This document shows, in pieces, positions 877 to 55,133 of a stretch of DNA of 64,000 nt (its first letter is position 1; the number at the start of each line of letters is the position of its first letter). The DNA is from a virus. Position numbers and translations under genes: made by a program. The DNA is taken from positions 1 through 64,000 of the IMG/VR virus record IMGVR_UViG_3300035190_000444; one strand, 5' to 3'. Under the pieces are notes generated by a model. That model had not been told where the DNA came from. It was given only the letters and a program-made list of their open reading frames with translations, and searched no databases.

Positions 877-1113
877 TTAGTACAAACGTTTGCGATTTGC
901 AGTTACTGCATTTGCTTCTTTTTGAAGTTTCTTACGGTAACGTGCTTTTGCAGCGCCTGCTTCACGTTTTCTAGCAGTAGTTGGTTTTTCGTAAAACTCT
1001 TTTTTACGTAGTGTTTCTAATTTTCCAGAATCTTCAACCTTGCGCTTAAATCGTCTTAACGATTGTGTAATGTTTTCATTTTCGCGCATTGTTACTTTGA
1101 CTCTATTCTGCAT
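877..1113 (-). CDS. rpsU: Phage-encoded 30S ribosomal protein bS21
   Basis: 78 aa from the ATG at 1113 (start MQNRVKV). The bS21 signature is clear: V-x-x-R-E-N-E-N-I, then LRRFKRKVEDSG, a KKEFYEKPT block and a long basic tail. bS21 sits at the 30S platform near the anti-Shine-Dalgarno and aids initiation. Phage-borne copies are known and are thought to replace host S21 so that ribosomes favour phage messages. An upstream ATG at 1134 is possible, but the homologous part starts at 1113. It overlaps the upstream gene by 11 nt. No key region is missing. Confidence 0.9.
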   Translation of the reverse strand: MQNRVKVTMRENENITQSLRRFKRKVEDSGKLETLRKKEFYEKPTTARKREAGAAKARYRKKLQKEANAVTANRKRLY

Positions 1114-1513
1114 TGTTATCATCATCTTCCTCATTGTTAAGTTGTTCTACAATCCAATCTAAATCAAATATTCTATTTTTAGAGATTAAATTGTAAGGTG
1201 TTAGTTCGTCGTTAGTTATATAGTATGCATTAGGGTGTGTAAGCATAAATGTGACAAATGATTTAGTAATCGGATCACAATTATCAACATCAATAATTAC
1301 TACTGCTACTTGATGTGTAACACTTAGTAACCAATCAATGTCTGCTTCATCGGTATCATAAATGAAGATATTAATATCTTCATCGCTTTCACCAATAATA
1401 GCATGAAACTGTTCTAGTACATGCGTTGATGGTTTTACTAACAAATAACCAACATCTAAATTAAAAAACTTATCCGGAGGTGTAATAACCGTAATTTTTC
1501 CTAATGGATTCAT
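1103..1513 (-). CDS. Conserved hypothetical protein, acidic C-terminus
   Basis: 136 aa, not recognised. It has alternating hydrophobic strands and charged turns (VAVVIIDVDNCDP, INIFIYDTDEADID), compatible with a small alpha/beta fold, and ends in an acidic tail (NNEEDDDNNAE). It lies between rlpA and the S21 gene and overlaps the latter by 11 nt, so the two are probably co-translated. Confidence 0.6.
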   Translation of the reverse strand: MNPLGKITVITPPDKFFNLDVGYLLVKPSTHVLEQFHAIIGESDEDINIFIYDTDEADIDWLLSVTHQVAVVIIDVDNCDPITKSFVTFMLTHPNAYYITNDELTPYNLISKNRIFDLDWIVEQLNNEEDDDNNAE

Positions 1514-1521
1514 GTGACCTT

Positions 1522-2028
1522 CTATGTGGTAATTAGTTTTGCCTTGTATTTATCAGAGAAGGACTTGACCGCTAATGATACTTTCTGTACCCCAGCTATT
1601 CCAATTGCTTTTGCTGCAGCCTTTGATAAGTCAATAACTCTACCTTTAACAAACGGTCCACGATCATTAATAGTAACTAACACTGTTTGGTTATTAGCTA
1701 AATTAGTTACTTCTACAACAGTGCCAAACGGTAAAAACTTATGTGCTGCAGTTAATTGCTTTGGATTAAAATATTCGCCACTTGCAGTTTTAGGTCTGCG
1801 TCGATATCTAGGTCCAGATTCGTAACCATACCAACTAGCTATACCTTGCATTTCGTTAGATGTATGTGCTGATCTAAGTCTATGCTTATAATGCAGGTGT
1901 TTAGTTTTTTTATGTACACTGTGTTGTATTGAATGATTGTCAGTCGAATGTTTAGTAGCTGCATCTACTGGAGCTACGGTGGTAATTATTGAGAGGGCAA
2001 GGAGCCCTGATATTAGTGAATTTTTCAT
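1522..2028 (-). CDS. RlpA-like secreted double-psi beta-barrel protein
   Basis: 168 aa from ATG 2028, which has a strong Shine-Dalgarno (AAAGGAG). Residues 1-24 form a signal peptide (K, hydrophobic [14 protein letters not shown], then A-x-A-A). The C-terminal half is the RlpA barrel: [40 protein letters not shown] and [15 protein letters not shown]. RlpA proteins bind or cleave denuded glycan strands in the periplasm. In a phage this could aid lysis or peptidoglycan passage. The His/Lys-rich linker before the barrel is unusual. It would be transcribed from the leftward promoter near 2350. Confidence 0.85.
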
Positions 2029-2084
2029 TTTTTCTCCTTTCACTTGGTGTGCATTAAAACAACTACACATTACATTAAGGGAGT

Positions 2085-2338
2085 AAACTGCACGAGGTTC
2101 TTCGAACCCATTTTGTTCGTGACGTCTTCTCCATCAGCCACAACATTAAACTGCAAATGTTGCACCTTTGGCAAGCCTGGCTTCCCGAATTTCGCGGGTT
2201 TCTACTTTGGCCAAGACTCGCGGGATTGTCAACTGCCCAATCCAACTATCTTAGTTTCTCTCGAAACATATAATATATAGTACAGAAATGCAAAATTCCG
2301 TTTAAAATGTGGATTTTTGCATAGATAAAGTGTACTAT
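2085..2338 (-). ncRNA. Candidate structured RNA / long 5' leader upstream of rlpA
   Basis: This gap has no convincing gene but lies just downstream of a leftward sigma70-type promoter. It contains a series of inverted repeats: an imperfect 12-bp stem (2288-2299 with 2311-2322) inside a 7-bp outer stem (TAGTACA 2278-2284 with TGTACTA 2331-2337); GTTTC/GAAAC with a GAGA loop on the RNA strand (2254-2267); GGATTG/CAATCC (2223-2243); CCCG/CGGG (2184-2198); CAACATT/AATGTTG (2141-2162); and GGTTC/GAACC (2096-2108). Base composition from about 2090 to 2250 is clearly more GC-rich than its surroundings. It could be a free RNA or a regulatory leader. Confidence 0.5.
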
Positions 2339-2344
2339 TAACAC

Positions 2345-2372
2345 ATTATACAGCATTATAGTTAAATGTCAA
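2345..2372 (-). promoter_or_regulatory. Leftward sigma70-type promoter (TTGACA-16-TATAAT)
   Basis: On the minus strand a perfect TTGACA (2372-2367) is followed after 16 nt by TATAAT (2350-2345). It faces the structured leader and rlpA and suggests transcription by unmodified host RNA polymerase. Confidence 0.7.
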
Positions 2373-44774: not shown

Positions 44775-45035
44775 ATGAGCATTGAAATATCCCCAAAAGA
44801 CTATTGGAAAGCAATGTGCCGAGATGAAGCACAGATGTATTGTTTATTCTTAGTAATAGACGGCAAGAAAGGATGGCGATTCCCTACTTATCGAGAATTA
44901 ATTGGACACGAGTCTACATATCATATAAGTATGTTAGGAGAATGGTATGAAGACGATTTAGTTGATACTAATTTATGCGATACTGACGATTTGTACTGTA
45001 TAGTACCAGTAAGGGATAGAAAAGATGACGATTGA
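44775..45035 (+). CDS. Mini-DUF1566 paralogue 1
   Basis: 86 aa. The family core is RDEAQMYC (16-23), an LVIDGKKGWRFPT segment (26-38), a Trp/Asp-rich variable middle and a terminal IVPVRD. This core equals the start (WDEA-YC, GWRLPT-EL) and end (VR) of DUF1566/Lcl C-terminal domains, a C-type-lectin-like fold, with most of the usual Y-W-S-S ... A-W ... G middle removed. No signal peptide or membrane segment. Twenty-one such genes lie between here and 61.8 kb. Role unknown. Confidence 0.75.
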   Translation: MSIEISPKDYWKAMCRDEAQMYCLFLVIDGKKGWRFPTYRELIGHESTYHISMLGEWYEDDLVDTNLCDTDDLYCIVPVRDRKDDD

Positions 45036-45276
45036 AATTTCACCAAGAGAAACATGGAAAAAACCACTTCCAAAAGATCAAGCACAAATGTATTGTTTAT
45101 TTTTTGAACACAACGGCAGAGGGTGGAGATTTCCTACTCTAGAAGAATGTCTAACTAACATGAGTGGAATTCCAACGATTGTTGGATGGTGTTGGAACAA
45201 AGAACGCATGGAAAGTGATGATTATAATACTGCAATTTGTGACGTAATTCTAGTTCGAGATGTTAAAAATGCATAA
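45025..45276 (+). CDS. Mini-DUF1566 paralogue 2
   Basis: 83 aa. It shares the N-terminal ten residues pattern with paralogue 1 (IEISPRETWKKPLPKDQAQMYC) and has GRGWRFPTLEE. The middle is W-rich (VGWCWNKERM). The end, VILVRDVKNA, follows the family ending. Overlaps paralogue 1 by 11 nt; the pair looks like a direct duplication. Confidence 0.72.
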   Translation: MTIEISPRETWKKPLPKDQAQMYCLFFEHNGRGWRFPTLEECLTNMSGIPTIVGWCWNKERMESDDYNTAICDVILVRDVKNA

Positions 45277-45279
45277 ATA
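45272..45279 (+). promoter_or_regulatory. Late-type box CATAAATA 5 nt before an ATG
   Basis: CATAAATA overlaps the stop of paralogue 2 and ends 5 nt before ATG 45285, which would give a leaderless late mRNA. Confidence 0.45.
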
Positions 45280-45284
45280 GTTTT

Positions 45285-45527
45285 ATGAAAATAGAAGAAC
45301 TTTTAAACGAACTAACCTTTCACGGCTCGCAATGCACTAAAGACTGTAGCGGACATCGCGCAGGATGGTCATGGGGTAAAAAGTATCCCAATCGTGCTAC
45401 TACTAACAGAGCTACTCATCAAAGTTTCAACAATGGTGTTGATATTGCTAATGCTAATACCAAAGTCGTTATGATGCCAAATGCACGTGGTGCAGGTGGT
45501 AAGTTTGTTAAGAAGCCTAAACCATAA
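45285..45527 (+). CDS. Small basic tagged protein
   Basis: 80 aa. The tag MKIEELLNEL has L7-N8-E9. It then reads SQCTKDCSGHRAGWSWGKKYP, a basic His/Cys/Gly part, Asn/Thr-rich repeats and a C-terminus GAGGKFVKKPKP. No Shine-Dalgarno but a late box 5 nt before the ATG, unlike its early-promoter neighbours: a late internal-protein gene embedded in the early region. Confidence 0.62.
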   Translation: MKIEELLNELTFHGSQCTKDCSGHRAGWSWGKKYPNRATTNRATHQSFNNGVDIANANTKVVMMPNARGAGGKFVKKPKP

Positions 45528-45529
45528 AA

Positions 45530-45542
45530 GGCCCCGCTGTAA
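45530..45542 (+). repeat. GGCCCCGCTGTAA motif, copy 1
   Basis: Directly after the stop of 45285-45527, in the context TAAAAGGCCCCGCTGTAAAC. Confidence 0.8.
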
Positions 45543-45606
45543 ACTCTGCATTACACACATTTTCACACGAGTATAATTACATAAACATGTAATACGCTCA
45601 TACACA

Positions 45607-45635
45607 TTGACAACACACATATACACTTATATACT
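45607..45635 (+). promoter_or_regulatory. Sigma70 promoter TTGACA-17-TATACT
   Basis: Near-consensus; drives 45713-45919 with a leader containing motif copy 2. Confidence 0.75.
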
Positions 45636-45662
45636 ATACGCATAACACGTTATATGCAAATA

Positions 45663-45675
45663 GGCCCCGCTGTAA
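45663..45675 (+). repeat. GGCCCCGCTGTAA motif, copy 2
   Basis: In the 5' leader of 45713-45919, about 38 nt before its ATG. Confidence 0.8.
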
Positions 45676-45712
45676 CACATACACTAAATAATTTATCAAC
45701 CGGAGTAATACC

Positions 45713-45919
45713 ATGGAAACCATTTATACTGACAGAAGAATAGTAGAAACTGGATGTATGTTGTACATGCGGATAATATCAATCGATTCTAGCATTACTG
45801 TTTATGCTTTTAAACATGACGAGTTTCGTTGCGAGATGGAAATCTTTACTGGCGATAACTATACAGGTAACTTAGAAGAATGGTTGTTACTTCCTGTTAG
45901 TACAGCTGCATCGTACTAA
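45713..45919 (+). CDS. Hypothetical protein
   Basis: 68 aa, not recognised. Beta-rich (MLYMRIISIDSSITVYAFKHD) with an acidic C-terminal half. Flanked on both sides by GGCCCCGCTGTAA motifs, one in the leader and one 2 nt after the stop. Confidence 0.55.
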   Translation: METIYTDRRIVETGCMLYMRIISIDSSITVYAFKHDEFRCEMEIFTGDNYTGNLEEWLLLPVSTAASY

Positions 45920-45921
45920 AA

Positions 45922-45934
45922 GGCCCCGCTGTAA
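45922..45934 (+). repeat. GGCCCCGCTGTAA motif, copy 3
   Basis: Immediately after the stop of 45713-45919 in the context TAAAAGGCCCCGCTGTAACA, the same 5' context as copies 1 and 5. Confidence 0.8.
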
Positions 45935-45945
45935 CATAATAACAC

Positions 45946-45974
45946 TTGACATACGTGTGCATATACTGTATAGT
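45946..45974 (+). promoter_or_regulatory. Sigma70 promoter TTGACA-17-TATAGT
   Basis: Points into a 480-nt stretch without a convincing gene, suggesting that the product is an RNA. Confidence 0.75.
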
Positions 45975-45981
45975 GTACGCA

Positions 45982-46340
45982 TAACTACAGCAGGTGTCGC
46001 GCAAACTGTATTATCTATGCGCCCTATAACTGGACAGATGTATCACAGTGATGGAATTGTTGAACTGTAGCAACGACATAACCACCTACCCATTTGGATG
46101 AACATGAGATGTACCTTTACAAAACTCATTACAGGTTATGGCCCCGCTGTACACATAAGGTTAAAAGAAAGGATAACACCCTTACGACTGATTATATAGT
46201 TAGCATTGTATAATTAGTCCGCCGTCATATAAAAACCAGGACGGAGCTCGAGGTACCGGATGACCGCCTCTGTAATGCTCTAATGCTAAGACATGAAGAA
46301 ACTCAACAAATGTTCCATTGGCCTTTGCGGGCCAATATGA
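45982..46340 (+). ncRNA. Candidate non-coding RNA in a 540-nt gene-free region
   Basis: Between 45919 and 46464 no frame longer than about 30 codons with a good start is seen. A near-consensus promoter lies at its head. The segment 46210-46340 is GC-richer than its surroundings and forms hairpins: CCGTC/GACGG (46222-46226 with 46240-46244) and ATTGGCC-TTTGCG-GGCCAAT (46317-46336), a 7-bp stem that could be a 3' end. It contains motif copy 4. A 31-codon frame at 46104 (MRCTFTKLITGYGPAV) is possible. Beyond 46370 lie two copies of ATAAAATTAT-like AT-rich sequence and an AGGACTTTAGTCCT hairpin just before the next gene. Confidence 0.45.
46140..46151 (+). repeat. GGCCCCGCTGTA motif, copy 4
   Basis: Inside the gene-free region, followed by CACATAAGG. 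Confidence 0.8.
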
Positions 46341-46463
46341 CTTCTAAATCTAACAAAATATTCAAAGAAAGAAAATAAAATTATAATAATTGATATGAGT
46401 GCCAACGAATATAAAATTATTATAATTTAGGACTTTAGTCCTTTATACCTAATAGGAGAAATT

Positions 46464-46682
46464 ATGATTGAACTAGCACCACTATCTGATTATAAGATGT
46501 CATATGACGAAGCTTGGTTGTACTGTGCTACTCTAACTCATAATAACAAATATGATTGGCGTATTCCAACTGATTACGAGTTTACATACAACGACGAAAT
46601 TGATGAAGAATCCTTTGATCAATCAGACGAACCACGTCCTAGCCATTGGCGTGTACAACCAGTGAGAACTAAAGATGCTTGA
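46464..46682 (+). CDS. Mini-DUF1566 paralogue 3
   Basis: 72 aa. Core YDEAWLYCATLTHNNKYDW then RIPTDYE, ending VQPVRTKDA. This is the N-K-Y-D-W-R-I-P-T subtype. TAGGAGAAATT precedes the ATG. The last codons and start of the next gene (AAAGATGCTTGAGATTGC) recur at the next junction, evidence of unit duplication. Confidence 0.72.
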   Translation: MIELAPLSDYKMSYDEAWLYCATLTHNNKYDWRIPTDYEFTYNDEIDEESFDQSDEPRPSHWRVQPVRTKDA

Positions 46683-46944
46683 GATTGCACCTATATTAAA
46701 TGAATATCTAAATTACGACGAAGCATGGCTATACTGCGCTACCTGTATACACGATAACAAATACGATTGGCGTATTCCAACTTATGACGAATATGAAGAT
46801 ATTGATGGAATTTCAATATCAGCATATGATGACTCGGATGAAGATGATTTTAGAGATAGCAATCTAAACAGCTTACCAACGGTAAAAAGTTTAAAATTCT
46901 TATCAATAAGAGTTGTACAACCAGTGAGGACTAAAGATGCTTGA
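46675..46944 (+). CDS. Mini-DUF1566 paralogue 4
   Basis: 89 aa. LEIAPILNEYLNYDEAWLYC start; NKYDWRIPTYDE; a longer acidic middle (SAYDDSDEDDFRDSN); end VVQPVRTKDA identical in pattern to paralogue 3. Overlaps both neighbours by 8 nt (ATGCTTGA). Confidence 0.72.
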   Translation: MLEIAPILNEYLNYDEAWLYCATCIHDNKYDWRIPTYDEYEDIDGISISAYDDSDEDDFRDSNLNSLPTVKSLKFLSIRVVQPVRTKDA

Positions 46945-47161
46945 GATTGCCCCAATGCCCGCCGGCCGGTTCTCATTTGATGATGCCTGGTTATATTGTG
47001 CTACACTAACATATAATAACAAGTATGACTGGCGCATACCAACTGAAGAAGAATTTTGTGATTACGAAGCAATTGATTGCGATGCGTTTGATCAGAATGA
47101 TGAAGGTCTTAAGATAGCTAAAGTAACACATAAAATATGTCCAGTGCGCACTGCTGATTAA
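46937..47161 (+). CDS. Mini-DUF1566 paralogue 5
   Basis: 74 aa. LEIAPMPAGRFSFDDAWLYC; NKYDWRIPTEEEF; end ICPVRTAD. Last of the first three-gene array. The first Tyr of YDEA is Phe here. Same 8-nt overlap as its neighbour. Confidence 0.72.
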   Translation: MLEIAPMPAGRFSFDDAWLYCATLTYNNKYDWRIPTEEEFCDYEAIDCDAFDQNDEGLKIAKVTHKICPVRTAD

Positions 47162-47169
47162 AATACCAT

Positions 47170-47198
47170 TTGTAAAGTCCTAAGTTTTGCGCTATAAT
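47170..47198 (+). promoter_or_regulatory. Sigma70 promoter of the 47.2-49.2 kb operon
   Basis: TTGTAA (47170-47175), 17 nt, TATAAT (47193-47198). Confidence 0.65.
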
Positions 47199-47220
47199 AA
47201 TGTTTTATGTAAGGAGCCAT

Positions 47221-47511
47221 ATGCTAGTAGCCACTTGTCAATCAAAATTTATAACGTATGCCGAAGCTGTTATGTATTGTTTGTTTTTAGATCACCAAGG
47301 AAAGAAAGGCTGGCGGTTGCCAACTTTACTTGAATGGGCAGATACTGCAGATGGCAGACTTACAACTAATACATGGTATCGAGAGAGTACGAATGAAGAA
47401 CGAGCATTGCTTGCAAAACAATACAACCATACCCAGCAAGCTATAGAAGCTATGATTGAACCATATGAAAATCGTAAAACAGGTATAGCAGTTGCAGTGA
47501 GAGACAAATGA
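47221..47511 (+). CDS. Mini-DUF1566 paralogue 6
   Basis: 96 aa from ATG 47221 (AAGGAG before it). YAEAVMYCLFLDHQGKKGWRLPT is the G-K-K-G-W-R-L-P-T subtype. The middle is longer and charged (WYRESTNEERALLAKQYNHT), and it ends AVAVRDK. First gene of a run of six paralogues plus one basic protein linked by 4-20 nt overlaps. Confidence 0.72.
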   Translation: MLVATCQSKFITYAEAVMYCLFLDHQGKKGWRLPTLLEWADTADGRLTTNTWYRESTNEERALLAKQYNHTQQAIEAMIEPYENRKTGIAVAVRDK

Positions 47512-47735
47512 TAGAAATATTATCTAATCCACCTGGGATCAGTCGGAAATTATATAATCGCGATGCAGCTTTTTTGTATGTAATTACTCTAGTCCATGAT
47601 GGGCATGCAGACTGGCGATTTCCTACTCCAGACGAATGGGTTGAAGGTCCTTTAGCGTATATGGCATGGCATCAAGGAAGAATTGATAACGATAGATTTT
47701 TCAGCTATCACATATACCCAGTGAGAGATTTATGA
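47508..47735 (+). CDS. Mini-DUF1566 paralogue 7
   Basis: 75 aa. RDAAFLYVITLVHDGHADWRFPTPDEW: the usual Cys after Y is Val here. Middle MAWHQGRIDNDRFF, end IYPVRDL. ATGA overlaps on both sides. Confidence 0.7.
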   Translation: MIEILSNPPGISRKLYNRDAAFLYVITLVHDGHADWRFPTPDEWVEGPLAYMAWHQGRIDNDRFFSYHIYPVRDL

Positions 47736-48031
47736 AATATCATAAACCATTAAGTGTACATTATCTACCAGTAGATCCAAATCCTAACAGGATGTCTTTA
47801 CATGAAGCAGTTATGTATTGTACATTCTTAGAGTTTGAAGGAAAGAAAGGATGGCGATTACCCACTAGTAGTGAAGTAGATGAGATTTATGCTCTCAGAG
47901 AAGCAACTCGGTGTAATTCGTTTATATACAAACCAAAGTATGTGTGGACACAAGATGATTTAGACAATCCGTCATCACACGATCCTCACAATCGCGGACG
48001 TGTATTGGCAGTAAGGACTAAGCATGATTGA
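47732..48031 (+). CDS. Mini-DUF1566 paralogue 8
   Basis: 99 aa. A 25-residue N-terminal lead (HKPLSVHYLPVDPNPNR), core LHEAVMYCTFLEFEGKKGW then RLPTSSE, a 35-residue middle with TRCNSFIYKPKYVW, end VLAVRTKHD. Confidence 0.7.
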   Translation: MKYHKPLSVHYLPVDPNPNRMSLHEAVMYCTFLEFEGKKGWRLPTSSEVDEIYALREATRCNSFIYKPKYVWTQDDLDNPSSHDPHNRGRVLAVRTKHD

Positions 48032-48275
48032 GCATGCAAACGAATCGCCGCACAAGATAACATGTGACGAATCATGGTTGTACTGTGCTACCCTAACTCA
48101 TAATAACAAGTATGATTGGAGGATGCCAACATATGACGAACGAATGAAATTAGAATTCTTTGATACATGGGATATAGTTGACTATATTGGTAGGCCTAAC
48201 GCTGCGTGGTTAAACTATAATGCAACCTGTTTTATTATACCAGTGAGGGATATAAATGAAAAAAACAAAGTATAA
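48024..48275 (+). CDS. Mini-DUF1566 paralogue 9
   Basis: 83 aa. CDESWLYCATLTHNNKYDW then RMPTYDE, almost identical in core to paralogue 3. Middle AAWLNYN, end FIIPVRDI plus a Lys/Asn tail. Overlaps the next gene by 20 nt. Confidence 0.7.
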   Translation: MIEHANESPHKITCDESWLYCATLTHNNKYDWRMPTYDERMKLEFFDTWDIVDYIGRPNAAWLNYNATCFIIPVRDINEKNKV

Positions 48276-52788: not shown

Positions 52789-53001
52789 ATGATTGAATCA
52801 GGAATAGGTTCTGATCATTTTCTAACATACGATGAAGCCTGGCTCTTTTGTATCACTACTACTCTCTACAATAAGTATGATTGGAGAATGATGACACGAC
52901 GTGAGTTTATAGAGTATAAACCAAGAGAAAAATGGTTCGAAGTCACCGGCGTGTCGCATTTAATAGCCCAGGTACTACCAGTGAGAGATGTAAATGATTA
53001 G
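52789..53001 (+). CDS. Mini-DUF1566 paralogue 12
   Basis: 70 aa. YDEAWLFCITTTLYNKYDWRMMTRREF: the Pro of R-x-P-T is Met here. End QVLPVRDVND. 7 nt after the gp88-like gene. Confidence 0.7.
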   Translation: MIESGIGSDHFLTYDEAWLFCITTTLYNKYDWRMMTRREFIEYKPREKWFEVTGVSHLIAQVLPVRDVND

Positions 53002-53245
53002 AAGAGATTTAGCTTACAATACACACTTAGAATACTTAGATTATTCTAACTATAAAATGGATTGGGACAGCGCATGGTTATACTGTGCTACCTGTACATA
53101 TAAAGACATGTATGATTGGCGAATGCTTACTCCATATGAATTTCGTAATGATCCATACATACACAGCTGGCATGCCGCTTCACGGAAGAATAACTTTCCA
53201 GCATTTGTATTACCAGTTCGAGATAGAGGCCCCGCTGTAACATGA
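52994..53245 (+). CDS. Mini-DUF1566 paralogue 13, ends within motif copy 6
   Basis: 83 aa. WDSAWLYCATCTYKDMYDW then RMLTPYEF, end VLPVRDRGPAVT. The last four residues G-P-A-V are encoded by the GGCCCCGCTGTA motif, so the motif has been taken into the 3' end of the gene. 4-nt overlap with the next gene. Confidence 0.7.
   Translation: MIRRDLAYNTHLEYLDYSNYKMDWDSAWLYCATCTYKDMYDWRMLTPYEFRNDPYIHSWHAASRKNNFPAFVLPVRDRGPAVT
53228..53240 (+). repeat. GGCCCCGCTGTAA motif, copy 6 (intragenic)
   Basis: In frame as G-P-A-V at the end of paralogue 13, directly before the ATG of paralogue 14. Confidence 0.8.
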
Positions 53246-53460
53246 GAATAGAAATATCACCAACAACTAATAAAGAATTTACATACGATGAAGCAATAAT
53301 GTACTGCTTTTTTCTTATTATAGACGGCAAAAAAGGATGGAGACTACCTACAAGAGAAGAATATAATTCTTCTGTCAAAATATGGGGATGGCATCAAGAT
53401 GATGATAGATCATCAACATCTGATCTTTTCAAAGTAACCCCAGTGCGGGACTCTGACTAA
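53242..53460 (+). CDS. Mini-DUF1566 paralogue 14
   Basis: 72 aa. IEISPTTNKEFTYDEAIMYC, then IDGKKGWRLPTREEY, middle WGWHQDDDRSS, end VTPVRDSD. The G-K-K-G-W subtype. Translation may depend on coupling, as the expected Shine-Dalgarno position holds the GC-rich motif. Confidence 0.72.
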   Translation: MRIEISPTTNKEFTYDEAIMYCFFLIIDGKKGWRLPTREEYNSSVKIWGWHQDDDRSSTSDLFKVTPVRDSD

Positions 53461-53468
53461 ATTATCAT

Positions 53469-53497
53469 TTGCTTACCAATAAATATTTTGCTATAAT
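53469..53497 (+). promoter_or_regulatory. Sigma70 promoter TTGCTT-17-TATAAT
   Basis: 37 nt before ATG 53534; drives the 53.5-55.1 kb operon. Confidence 0.65.
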
Positions 53498-53533
53498 ATA
53501 TTTTTATTTACAAACCTTACGGAGTACATAACT

Positions 53534-53740
53534 ATGGCACACGTAGAACATGGACCAAGATCCGAAAACAAAATGACTTATGATGAAGCAATAATGTATT
53601 GCTTCTGGTTCACTCACAATGGCAAGAAAGGATGGCGTCTTCCAACCTTTCATGAATTTCTAGACGGGAACTCGTGGTATAAGGATGCTGAGATTACTAA
53701 ACGCAAGTGGTACGTAAAACCTGTGAGGGACATAAAATGA
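53534..53740 (+). CDS. Mini-DUF1566 paralogue 15
   Basis: 68 aa. YDEAIMYCFWFTHNGKKGW then RLPTFHEF, middle NSWYKDAEITKRK, end VKPVRDIK. Confidence 0.72.
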   Translation: MAHVEHGPRSENKMTYDEAIMYCFWFTHNGKKGWRLPTFHEFLDGNSWYKDAEITKRKWYVKPVRDIK

Positions 53741-54054
53741 ACTTTGAAATAGCACCACGCGACAAATGGTTAGCAGAAACTCCTTACGACCAAGGAGCAA
53801 TGTATTGTTTATTCCTTGAAATTGATGGAAAGAAAGGATGGCGATTGCCAACTAATGAAGAAGCTGACATGTTAGTAAACACAGTAGATCCGGGTAATGA
53901 TTTTGAGAATCCCGAAGTCCTTCCAGAGTTAGAGGAGTTTAATTCCTATTGGTTTGATGCTGATCATTGGGGGTTTTGGACACACGAAGATACAGTTGAC
54001 GACTATGATCTTGACGAATTGTTTACTGCAATTCCAGTAAGGGACATAATATGA
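53737..54054 (+). CDS. Mini-DUF1566 paralogue 16
   Basis: 105 aa from ATG 53737, which overlaps the previous stop (ATGA). NFEIAPRDKW start, YDQGAMYCLFLEIDGKKGW then RLPTNEEA, a long acidic middle (FNSYWFDADHWGFWTHED) and end AIPVRDII. The D-E-A triplet is D-Q-G here. Confidence 0.72.
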   Translation: MNFEIAPRDKWLAETPYDQGAMYCLFLEIDGKKGWRLPTNEEADMLVNTVDPGNDFENPEVLPELEEFNSYWFDADHWGFWTHEDTVDDYDLDELFTAIPVRDII

Positions 54055-54344
54055 ACTTTGAAATAGCACCAAAAACAACGGAGATACAAGCCACGTGGGA
54101 TGAAGCAGTTATGTATTGTTTTTTTCTTGAAATAGATGGAAAGAAAGGATGGAGACTGCCTACTAAAGAGGAATTAGATTATATCTACCATTCAAAAAAT
54201 GATTTCATTGATGCCTACTACTGGTCCTCTACTGAGTACAATGGCAGCAGCGCCTGGGGTCAGGTTTTCACCAGTGGCACCCAGTTCAGCTCCAGTAAGA
54301 ACGGCGGCAGCTACTACGTTAGAGCAATAAGGGACATAATATGA
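54051..54344 (+). CDS. Full-length DUF1566-type protein with candidate variable region
   Basis: 97 aa (paralogue 17). NFEIAP start; WDEAVMYC (16-23); GWRLPTKEELDYIY (33-46); then the complete DUF1566 middle lost in most paralogues: YYWSSTE (56-62), SSAW (66-69), F73, G76, and YYVRAIRD (88-95). From about 54213 the codons switch to GC-rich forms, mostly AAC-derivable (TAC, GGC, AGC, ACC, TTC, TCC), unlike the 5' half. This is what a diversity-generating retroelement variable region looks like in lectin-fold targets. Confidence 0.78.
   Translation: MNFEIAPKTTEIQATWDEAVMYCFFLEIDGKKGWRLPTKEELDYIYHSKNDFIDAYYWSSTEYNGSSAWGQVFTSGTQFSSSKNGGSYYVRAIRDII
54213..54335 (+). other. Possible DGR variable region (VR-like)
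   Basis: GC-rich 3' segment of the 97-aa gene, ending in TACTACGTTAGAGCAATAAGGGAC. A related end (TACGTTAGACCAGTAAGGGAC) occurs at 54868-54888 in the next paralogue. Variable codons can be read as A-substituted forms of AAC while Trp, Gln and Lys codons remain. No template repeat or reverse transcriptase is seen in this window. Confidence 0.4.
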
Positions 54345-54418
54345 ACTTTGAAGTCGCACCTAACGGTGCTCGAACTGATAATTGCCATATGCAAAACTTA
54401 ACTGGAGAACTACGATGA
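54341..54418 (+). pseudogene. Truncated mini-DUF1566 stub
   Basis: 25 codons: MNFEVAPNGARTDN ... then stop. The first seven residues copy the start of paralogues 16 and 17 (NFEIAP), but the core is gone. ATGA overlaps on both sides keep translation coupled to the next gene, which may explain why the stub remains. Confidence 0.55.
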
Positions 54419-54891
54419 GAAAATCCCTATCACATAAAGAAATCCTAATACTAAAACTCAATAATCTTTTAGCTACTTCTGAATCACTCGAAGACAAACT
54501 TGTAACCGAGAATAATCAATGGCAATGCCGTGCAACAGTCCTACGCAGCGATATTCAAAATTTGATTGACTATGTAGAATGGTCGGTAGAAGAGAATAGT
54601 ATGAATATTGAAATAGCACCAAAATCTGCCGAGGAGTCATGTAGTTGGGATACTGCACGAACATATTGTTTATTTCTTAACTTTGATGAAAAAACTGATT
54701 GGAGACTTCCAACAAAAGAAGAACTAAATCAAATCTATGAATCAGATAATGATTTTCGTAGTGGTCGATACTGGGCTTCTAATGAACAAAGTGTAGATAC
54801 TGCTTGGAGTCAGAGTTTTGAAAATGGTAGCAGATACCCTAACTTTAAGTTCCACGGTGGCCTCTACGTTAGACCAGTAAGGGACTTATGA
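54415..54891 (+). CDS. DUF1566-type protein fused to a helical N-terminal domain
   Basis: 158 aa. Residues 1-62 are helical (SHKEILILKLNNLLATSESLEDKL) and unlike any paralogue. From M63 (ATG 54601) the family pattern starts: MNIEIAPKSAEE, WDTARTYC, DWRLPTKEELNQIY, then a full middle (RYWASNE, TAWSQSFENGS) and GGLYVRPVRDL. Either one fused protein or two products with an internal start. The 3' third has GC-richer codons, like its neighbour. Confidence 0.68.
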   Translation: MRKSLSHKEILILKLNNLLATSESLEDKLVTENNQWQCRATVLRSDIQNLIDYVEWSVEENSMNIEIAPKSAEESCSWDTARTYCLFLNFDEKTDWRLPTKEELNQIYESDNDFRSGRYWASNEQSVDTAWSQSFENGSRYPNFKFHGGLYVRPVRDL

Positions 54892-55133
54892 TTATTGATT
54901 ATATGATTGATCGTGCTCCGCCACGTATAGTAAACAACTATGAAGAGGCTTGGCTGTATTGCCTTACCTGTAATCATGATGGGCATAATGATTGGAGGTT
55001 ACCTACGGTAGACGAATGGCAATATTCGTCTACAACCTCAATGCCTTTAGAAGCTTATTATGAAAACAATTATTTCTTTAAAGTTGAACCGGCTATGCAG
55101 AATAAGGCAGTTCCGGTACGTGAAGTAAAATAG
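54888..55133 (+). CDS. Mini-DUF1566 paralogue 19
   Basis: 81 aa. YEEAWLYCLTCNHDGHNDW then RLPTVDEW, middle LEAYYENNYFF, end AVPVREVK. Last gene of the operon, joined by a 4-nt overlap. Confidence 0.72.
   Translation: MIIDYMIDRAPPRIVNNYEEAWLYCLTCNHDGHNDWRLPTVDEWQYSSTTSMPLEAYYENNYFFKVEPAMQNKAVPVREVK

Follow-up and report, generated by a model that had tools for sequence, protein, structure and literature searches.

A conserved, structured RNA, probably a cis-regulatory leader, precedes a cell-wall hydrolase gene cluster in large phages

The rlpA locus and its upstream region

The window analysed here is a stretch of 64,000 nucleotides from a virus (positions 1 to 64,000 of IMG/VR record IMGVR_UViG_3300035190_000444). 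On its minus strand, a folded and conserved RNA of about 235 nt lies 5' of the peptidoglycan hydrolase gene rlpA, which is followed by ORF136 and the gene for ribosomal protein bS21 (Table 1). For rlpA, the ATG at 2028-2026 was preferred over the start of a longer ORF at 2070. An initial annotation had described a structured RNA candidate downstream of a minus-strand TTGACA-16-TATAAT promoter. This promoter-like pair could be read directly, the stretch downstream of it contains no convincing gene, and several of the hairpins described there were recovered, including GUUUC-GAGA-GAAAC. Its placement just before rlpA also stood, but its limits (2085-2372) had to be redrawn, with the conserved RNA extending from about 2267 to the Shine-Dalgarno (SD) sequence at 2034. 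The 3' limit at 2085 was too short, given that conservation continues through helix G to the SD, and an AU-rich hairpin further upstream (about 2285-2335) falls outside the conserved family.

Table 1. Coordinates of the RNA elements, upstream signals and genes at the rlpA locus of the window
Feature	Position	Strand	Remarks
sigma70-like promoter TTGACA-16-TATAAT	2345..2372	-	TTGACA at 2372-2367, TATAAT at 2350-2345; about 77 nt before helix A; read directly
TATATA box	2274..2279	-	Spans -12 to -7 relative to helix A; conservation >90% among aligned copies
Helix A, GUUUC-GAGA-GAAAC	2254..2267	-	GNRA-type loop; 5' edge; 99.6% of cells paired, nearly invariant
AAG strand	2250..2252	-	Can pair with CUU (2077-2079), closing the domain
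Helix B	2223..2243	-	Hairpin of variable length; 94.5% paired; two-sided changes at 4/5 counted pairs
Helix C (GCGAGUC..GGCUUGC)	2171..2221	-	97.0% of counted cells paired; changes mostly one-sided
Hairpin D	2184-2198	-	Enclosed by helix C
Helix E	2132..2170	-	Invariant base, internal loop, strongly covarying variable stem
Helix F	2081..2131	-	Base is internal GGAG with CUC(C), 99.6% paired, nearly invariant
Anti-SD strand CUCC	2080..2083	-	Proposed switching strand; can pair with the GGAG of helix F or, in register, with that of the SD
Helix G	2048..2069	-	Hairpin immediately 5' of the SD region; 98.2% paired; two-sided changes at 4/6 pairs
SD of rlpA, AAAGGAG	2034..2040	-	GGAG end 14 nt after hairpin G; near-universal among copies
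rlpA	1522..2028	-	168 aa; DPBB_1, E 8e-24; SD directly upstream
ORF136	1103..1513	-	Second cluster gene; no Pfam or PHROGs match
bS21 gene	877..1134	-	Third cluster gene; Ribosomal_S21, E 1.3e-14

Conservation sets in sharply at 2267, reaching 2.0 bits per base over the first five bases of helix A, while conservation 5' of this helix in the alignment is limited to the TATATA box and a few bases beside it. Since these five bases are invariant and little is conserved before them, the 5' edge of the RNA was placed at about 2267. The TATATA box is possibly a -10 or late-promoter-like element with a start site at 2267. Its participation in the RNA fold was considered and rejected, as no compensated partner was seen. 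Perfect or near-perfect TTGACA-16-TATAAT sequences were observed upstream of most sampled rlpA-type copies of the RNA and were absent upstream of the SleB-type copies described below.

In all 19 loci with enough flanking sequence (at least 6.5 kb downstream in each; some are overlapping or near-identical contigs), the bS21 gene follows the RNA on the same strand at a distance of 0.8-4.2 kb. A membrane protein (13/19) and a relative of ORF136 (12/19) are encoded between the two, and lipoproteins are frequent. A homologue of this membrane protein follows a putative glucosaminidase gene in Pelagibacter phage Mosig (4289-5921), an arrangement which hints that the protein belongs to a lysis-type cassette.

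Elsewhere on the plus strand of the window, positions 45994-46138 match the Rfam family Polynucleobacter-1 RNA, itself a candidate RNA (59.6 bits; threshold 37); the match precedes a tandem array of small genes related to one another. Arrays of short related ORFs with a W-R-x-P-T-like motif (DWRIPT, GWRLPT) occupy 44775-48275 and 52789-55133 and apparently constitute a tandem gene family.

Distribution and conserved fold of the RNA

Querying IMG/VR with rlpA gave 31 loci, in which the sequence immediately preceding the gene is strongly conserved. Further copies, some of them before SleB-type hydrolase genes, came from two pattern scans of the same database. The SleB-type hydrolase (Pfam Hydrolase_2) is unrelated to the RlpA family (Pfam DPBB_1) and is grouped with endolysins in PHROGs. 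A SleB query matched 374 loci, 80 of which were kept, and the RNA was found directly upstream of the SleB-type gene in 78 of the 79 new loci among them. At least 93 distinct full copies were extracted from IMG/VR. In 11 phage contigs, the covariance model R1 detected a single strong copy apiece. Of 10 contigs tested, 5 have a T4-type major capsid protein, and the one capsid protein that was compared resembles most closely its counterparts in cultured jumbo myoviruses, among them Sinorhizobium phage Phosso, a Vibrio phage and GAP32-like phages.

No Rfam 15 family matched the element at the gathering threshold; only sub-threshold chance matches were obtained, with E up to 10, and the small loci of relatives likewise gave no Rfam match over it. 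Among cultured phages, 50,697 phage records gave no match in nucleotide searches that used the RNAs of relatives as queries, and model R1 found nothing in seven large phages, although diverged versions could escape both searches. Three pattern matches in bacterial genomes were set aside as chance, model R1 finding nothing in them. Full-text searches of open-access papers returned no description of the RNA. Judged by these comparisons, it appears to be an undescribed family within a known kind, the structured cis-regulatory leaders, and we do not claim riboswitch status for it.

The initial annotation had proposed compensatory changes and conservation in relatives as the check on its candidate, and on both the RNA held up. 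In an alignment of 92 copies, the tested structure of 47 pairs was paired in 94.5% of cells and showed 426 two-sided changes, where shuffles gave 139.7 +/- 13.5. Relatedness is not taken into account by shuffling; it is preserved in a second control, in which partners were slid by 1-3 columns, and this control agrees, with pairing falling to 34-43%. The clearest covariation was observed in helix G, next to the SD, where one pair occurs as all four Watson-Crick types and is paired in 92/92 copies. Helices B and E also covary well. Helix E shows two-sided changes at 6 counted pairs, in agreement with folds of single sequences, and the middle segment of helix F does so at 3 pairs. Compensation cannot prove pairing where the sequence hardly varies, as in helix A, at the bases of helices E and F and in the SD; the base of helix F has a predicted base-pair probability of 0.997 in the window. 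The AAG/CUU pairing that would close the domain is possible in 91-92 of the 92 copies, with an A-U/G-U change at one pair, and counts as weak evidence because it is nearly invariant. Helices C, E and F are contiguous, with zero unpaired bases between them. One covariation rank prompted the consideration of a pseudoknot between the loop of helix D and the strand before the GGGUUC of helix F, which was rejected because the native pairing was no better than permuted ones (p 0.22 for run length; 0.72 for energy).

Comparison of folding energy with shuffled sequence, also suggested by the initial annotation, gave a divided outcome. The 341-nt stretch folded better than all 100 shuffles (z -3.09), whereas the 234-nt core gave z -1.56, with 16 of 200 shuffles folding as well. 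As the core is unremarkable, the folding energy of a single sequence was not used as evidence; single-sequence folding lends modest, not decisive, support to RNA structure.

Two readings had been offered at the outset, a regulatory leader of rlpA and bS21 or an independent small RNA, and the comparison favours the former. Wherever its 3' end is present, the RNA runs into the hydrolase SD, and it heads the same-strand cluster with bS21. In the loci examined it stands immediately 5' of, and contiguous with, the rlpA or SleB-type gene. A small RNA encoded independently upstream of rlpA could draw on its own promoter-like sequences, but conservation reaches straight into the SD, which the best-covarying hairpin abuts, and the RNA is always found at the hydrolase operon, with one strong copy per contig; we regard this reading as extremely improbable. 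The covarying fold and constant position support a structured cis-regulatory leader, whose regulatory effect is predicted. At the level of sequence comparison, the conserved fold, the fixed position relative to the SD and the conserved gene cluster are established.

A proposed translational switch and its possible triggers

We propose that the leader, comprising helices A to G, controls translation initiation of the hydrolase gene and probably that of the lysis-type late cluster too, a proposal for which we judge the chances evenly balanced. Translational control is, as we infer it, the most likely mechanism. The presence of the same RNA before two non-homologous hydrolases counts in favour of a hydrolase leader.

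In the proposed ON fold, the A-F domain would occupy the sequence CUCCCUU: the base of helix F would be closed by CUC(C) and the internal GGAG, CUU would bind the AAG (or GAG) that follows helix A, and the real SD would thereby remain accessible. In the OFF fold, the base of helix F would open or fail to form, and CUCC would pair with the identical GGAG of the SD, in a register set by hairpin G and the two 14-nt spacers. The resting state would be ON, and a signal acting on the A-F domain, which could be a metabolite or else a protein of phage or host, would drive the leader OFF; this direction of switching is itself a proposal. It was chosen because the SD of the window is predicted to be open (0.92 unpaired) and the second helix has a near-zero predicted probability there, two predictions that count against the switch. 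The opposite arrangement, an SD blocked at rest, is not supported, as its predicted accessibility is no lower than that of other genes.

Several observations are consistent with a CUCC strand that may switch between partners. The spacing of CUCC and SD around hairpin G is 14/14 nt in 84 of the 92 copies, and the alternative SD helix could pair in 99.3% of cells. The facing columns 273 and 327 underwent 9 and 11 changes, 9 of them on the same branch of a tree built from the other columns; these co-changes support closeness of the two sides, although they run from A.G to U.C/U.U and are not Watson-Crick. RNAalifold drew part of the second helix in 3 of 5 subgroups. Both competing CUCC pairings are nearly invariant, so that compensation proves neither of them. 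For a possible short hairpin at the SD, between an AAGUG-type arm and a downstream CACUU or ACUU, the mean run was 4.71, compared with 4.38 in shuffles and 4.51 when the arms were swapped; relatedness was uncontrolled, and the hairpin is suggestive only. The evidence for switching should be read as hypothesis-generating, since tests were chosen as the work went on and several pairings were tried.

A leader of this kind could also act as a constitutive 5' structure that protects the mRNA end or raises translation of the late operon without switching. The predicted accessibility of the SD would fit such a role, as would the onset of conservation at a hairpin exactly at the possible transcription start. 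However, conservation of both sequence and structure over about 235 nt, together with the in-register second partner of the SD, exceeds what a stabiliser needs, which makes this reading rather unlikely.

If the leader does switch, the A-F domain might be the aptamer of a metabolite riboswitch, responding to a small molecule that reports the state of the infected cell. Its size, the many invariant loop and junction bases, the linker-free packing of several helices and a junction-to-SD layout like that typically seen in translational riboswitches all point this way. Like those riboswitches with an anti-SD platform, the leader presents a folded 5' UTR domain before the SD and an anti-SD strand with a competing partner; it differs in having no assigned ligand or Rfam family and in that the SD core itself is duplicated in the competing partner. 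There is also precedent among T4-like aquatic phages, in the glutamine riboswitch of OM43 phage Melnitz and Pelagibacter phage Mosig, for which a link to lysis control was speculated by the authors (PMC9004378). That element belongs to an aptamer type already known and is associated with a tmRNA gene; model R1 finds nothing in Mosig. Against a riboswitch, no similarity to any Rfam riboswitch was found, the first gene, a hydrolase, gives no clue to the ligand, and the RNA was not seen outside phages in the searches made. We consider a riboswitch unlikely, if a serious candidate.

Alternatively, phage or host bS21 could bind the SD/anti-SD-like duplex that forms the base of helix F and thereby feed back on, or time, its own late cluster. 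The presence of the bS21 gene in all 19 loci with enough flank favours this idea, as does the near-invariance of the GGAG/CUC duplex. Phage bS21 has been tied to late expression in another phage group (PMC9723584), and in OLE RNA bS21 binds an SD/anti-SD mimic and changes the fold (PMC12054373). Paired GGAG-type and CUCC-type strands within a conserved helix, as in the OLE mimic, recur at the base of helix F. Both are conserved structured RNAs with such a duplex and a connection to bS21, which for the leader is hypothesis only. OLE RNA, however, is about 600 nt long, bacterial and part of an RNA-protein particle, not an mRNA leader, and shows no homology to it. Synthesis of bS21 is also tied to SD:anti-SD pairing in Flavobacterium, where bS21 is autoregulated (PMC9976891); that system differs in that it involves no structured leader and acts through an extended SD of rpsU itself. 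On the other side, one contig (IMGVR_UViG_3300012347_000482) encodes no bS21 in any of its 145,656 bases but has the RNA together with the membrane protein, a gene of the SleB type and one resembling ORF136; host bS21 could substitute there. In addition, 43 of 80 bS21 loci are without this RNA, though many have another leader. CUCCCUU resembles the 16S tail only in part, perhaps by chance. Because of the bS21-less contig and these 43 loci, we hold bS21 to be an improbable trigger, and a small molecule or a different protein could serve equally well. The leader could even represent a new RNA class, in which one anti-SD strand would be contested by the SD and by the leader's own GGAG decoy, and the SD:anti-SD-like duplex would be read by a translation factor, phage bS21 for instance, co-timing lysis and late ribosome takeover; we rate this as quite improbable.

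Related leaders and significance

The leader described here (RNA-1) shares with the manA, wcaG and PhotoRC-II motifs, candidate structured RNAs of cyanophages (PMC2864571), that all are conserved structured RNA candidates of aquatic T4-like phages proposed to act in cis. Their sequences, structures and genes are different, those motifs being associated with host metabolism and RNA-1 with a cell-wall hydrolase operon.

In many phages with the same cluster but without RNA-1, a different conserved leader, RNA-2, occupies the same place. Its first part is a GGNNCUAGCGANNCC-type hairpin that shows two-sided changes; an invariant GCGUA/UACGC stem follows and encloses the SD and start codon in 30/30 aligned copies. 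The occurrence of RNA-2 was counted in favour of leader control. RNA-2 was found just upstream of the hydrolase gene in L230 (about 2400-2530), L234, L241, L248 and about 26 other loci, and it has no credible Rfam match in the four loci tested. In two further loci with the same gene cluster, L224 and L225, neither RNA-1 nor RNA-2 was recognised upstream of the rlpA-like gene. As RNA-2 stands at the same place as RNA-1, control of the cluster by leaders is apparently a repeated theme with interchangeable leaders.

To our knowledge, phage-borne cis-regulatory RNAs are rarely reported in large T4-like phages of lakes and seas. RNA-1 adds to these phages a widespread and apparently undescribed leader RNA family. 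It marks one cluster, comprising the hydrolase, membrane protein, lipoproteins and bS21, as probably leader-controlled, with a second leader in related phages. If the decoy-SD switch is true, it would provide a concrete, mutable system for studying the timing of lysis in jumbo phages and the purpose of their bS21.
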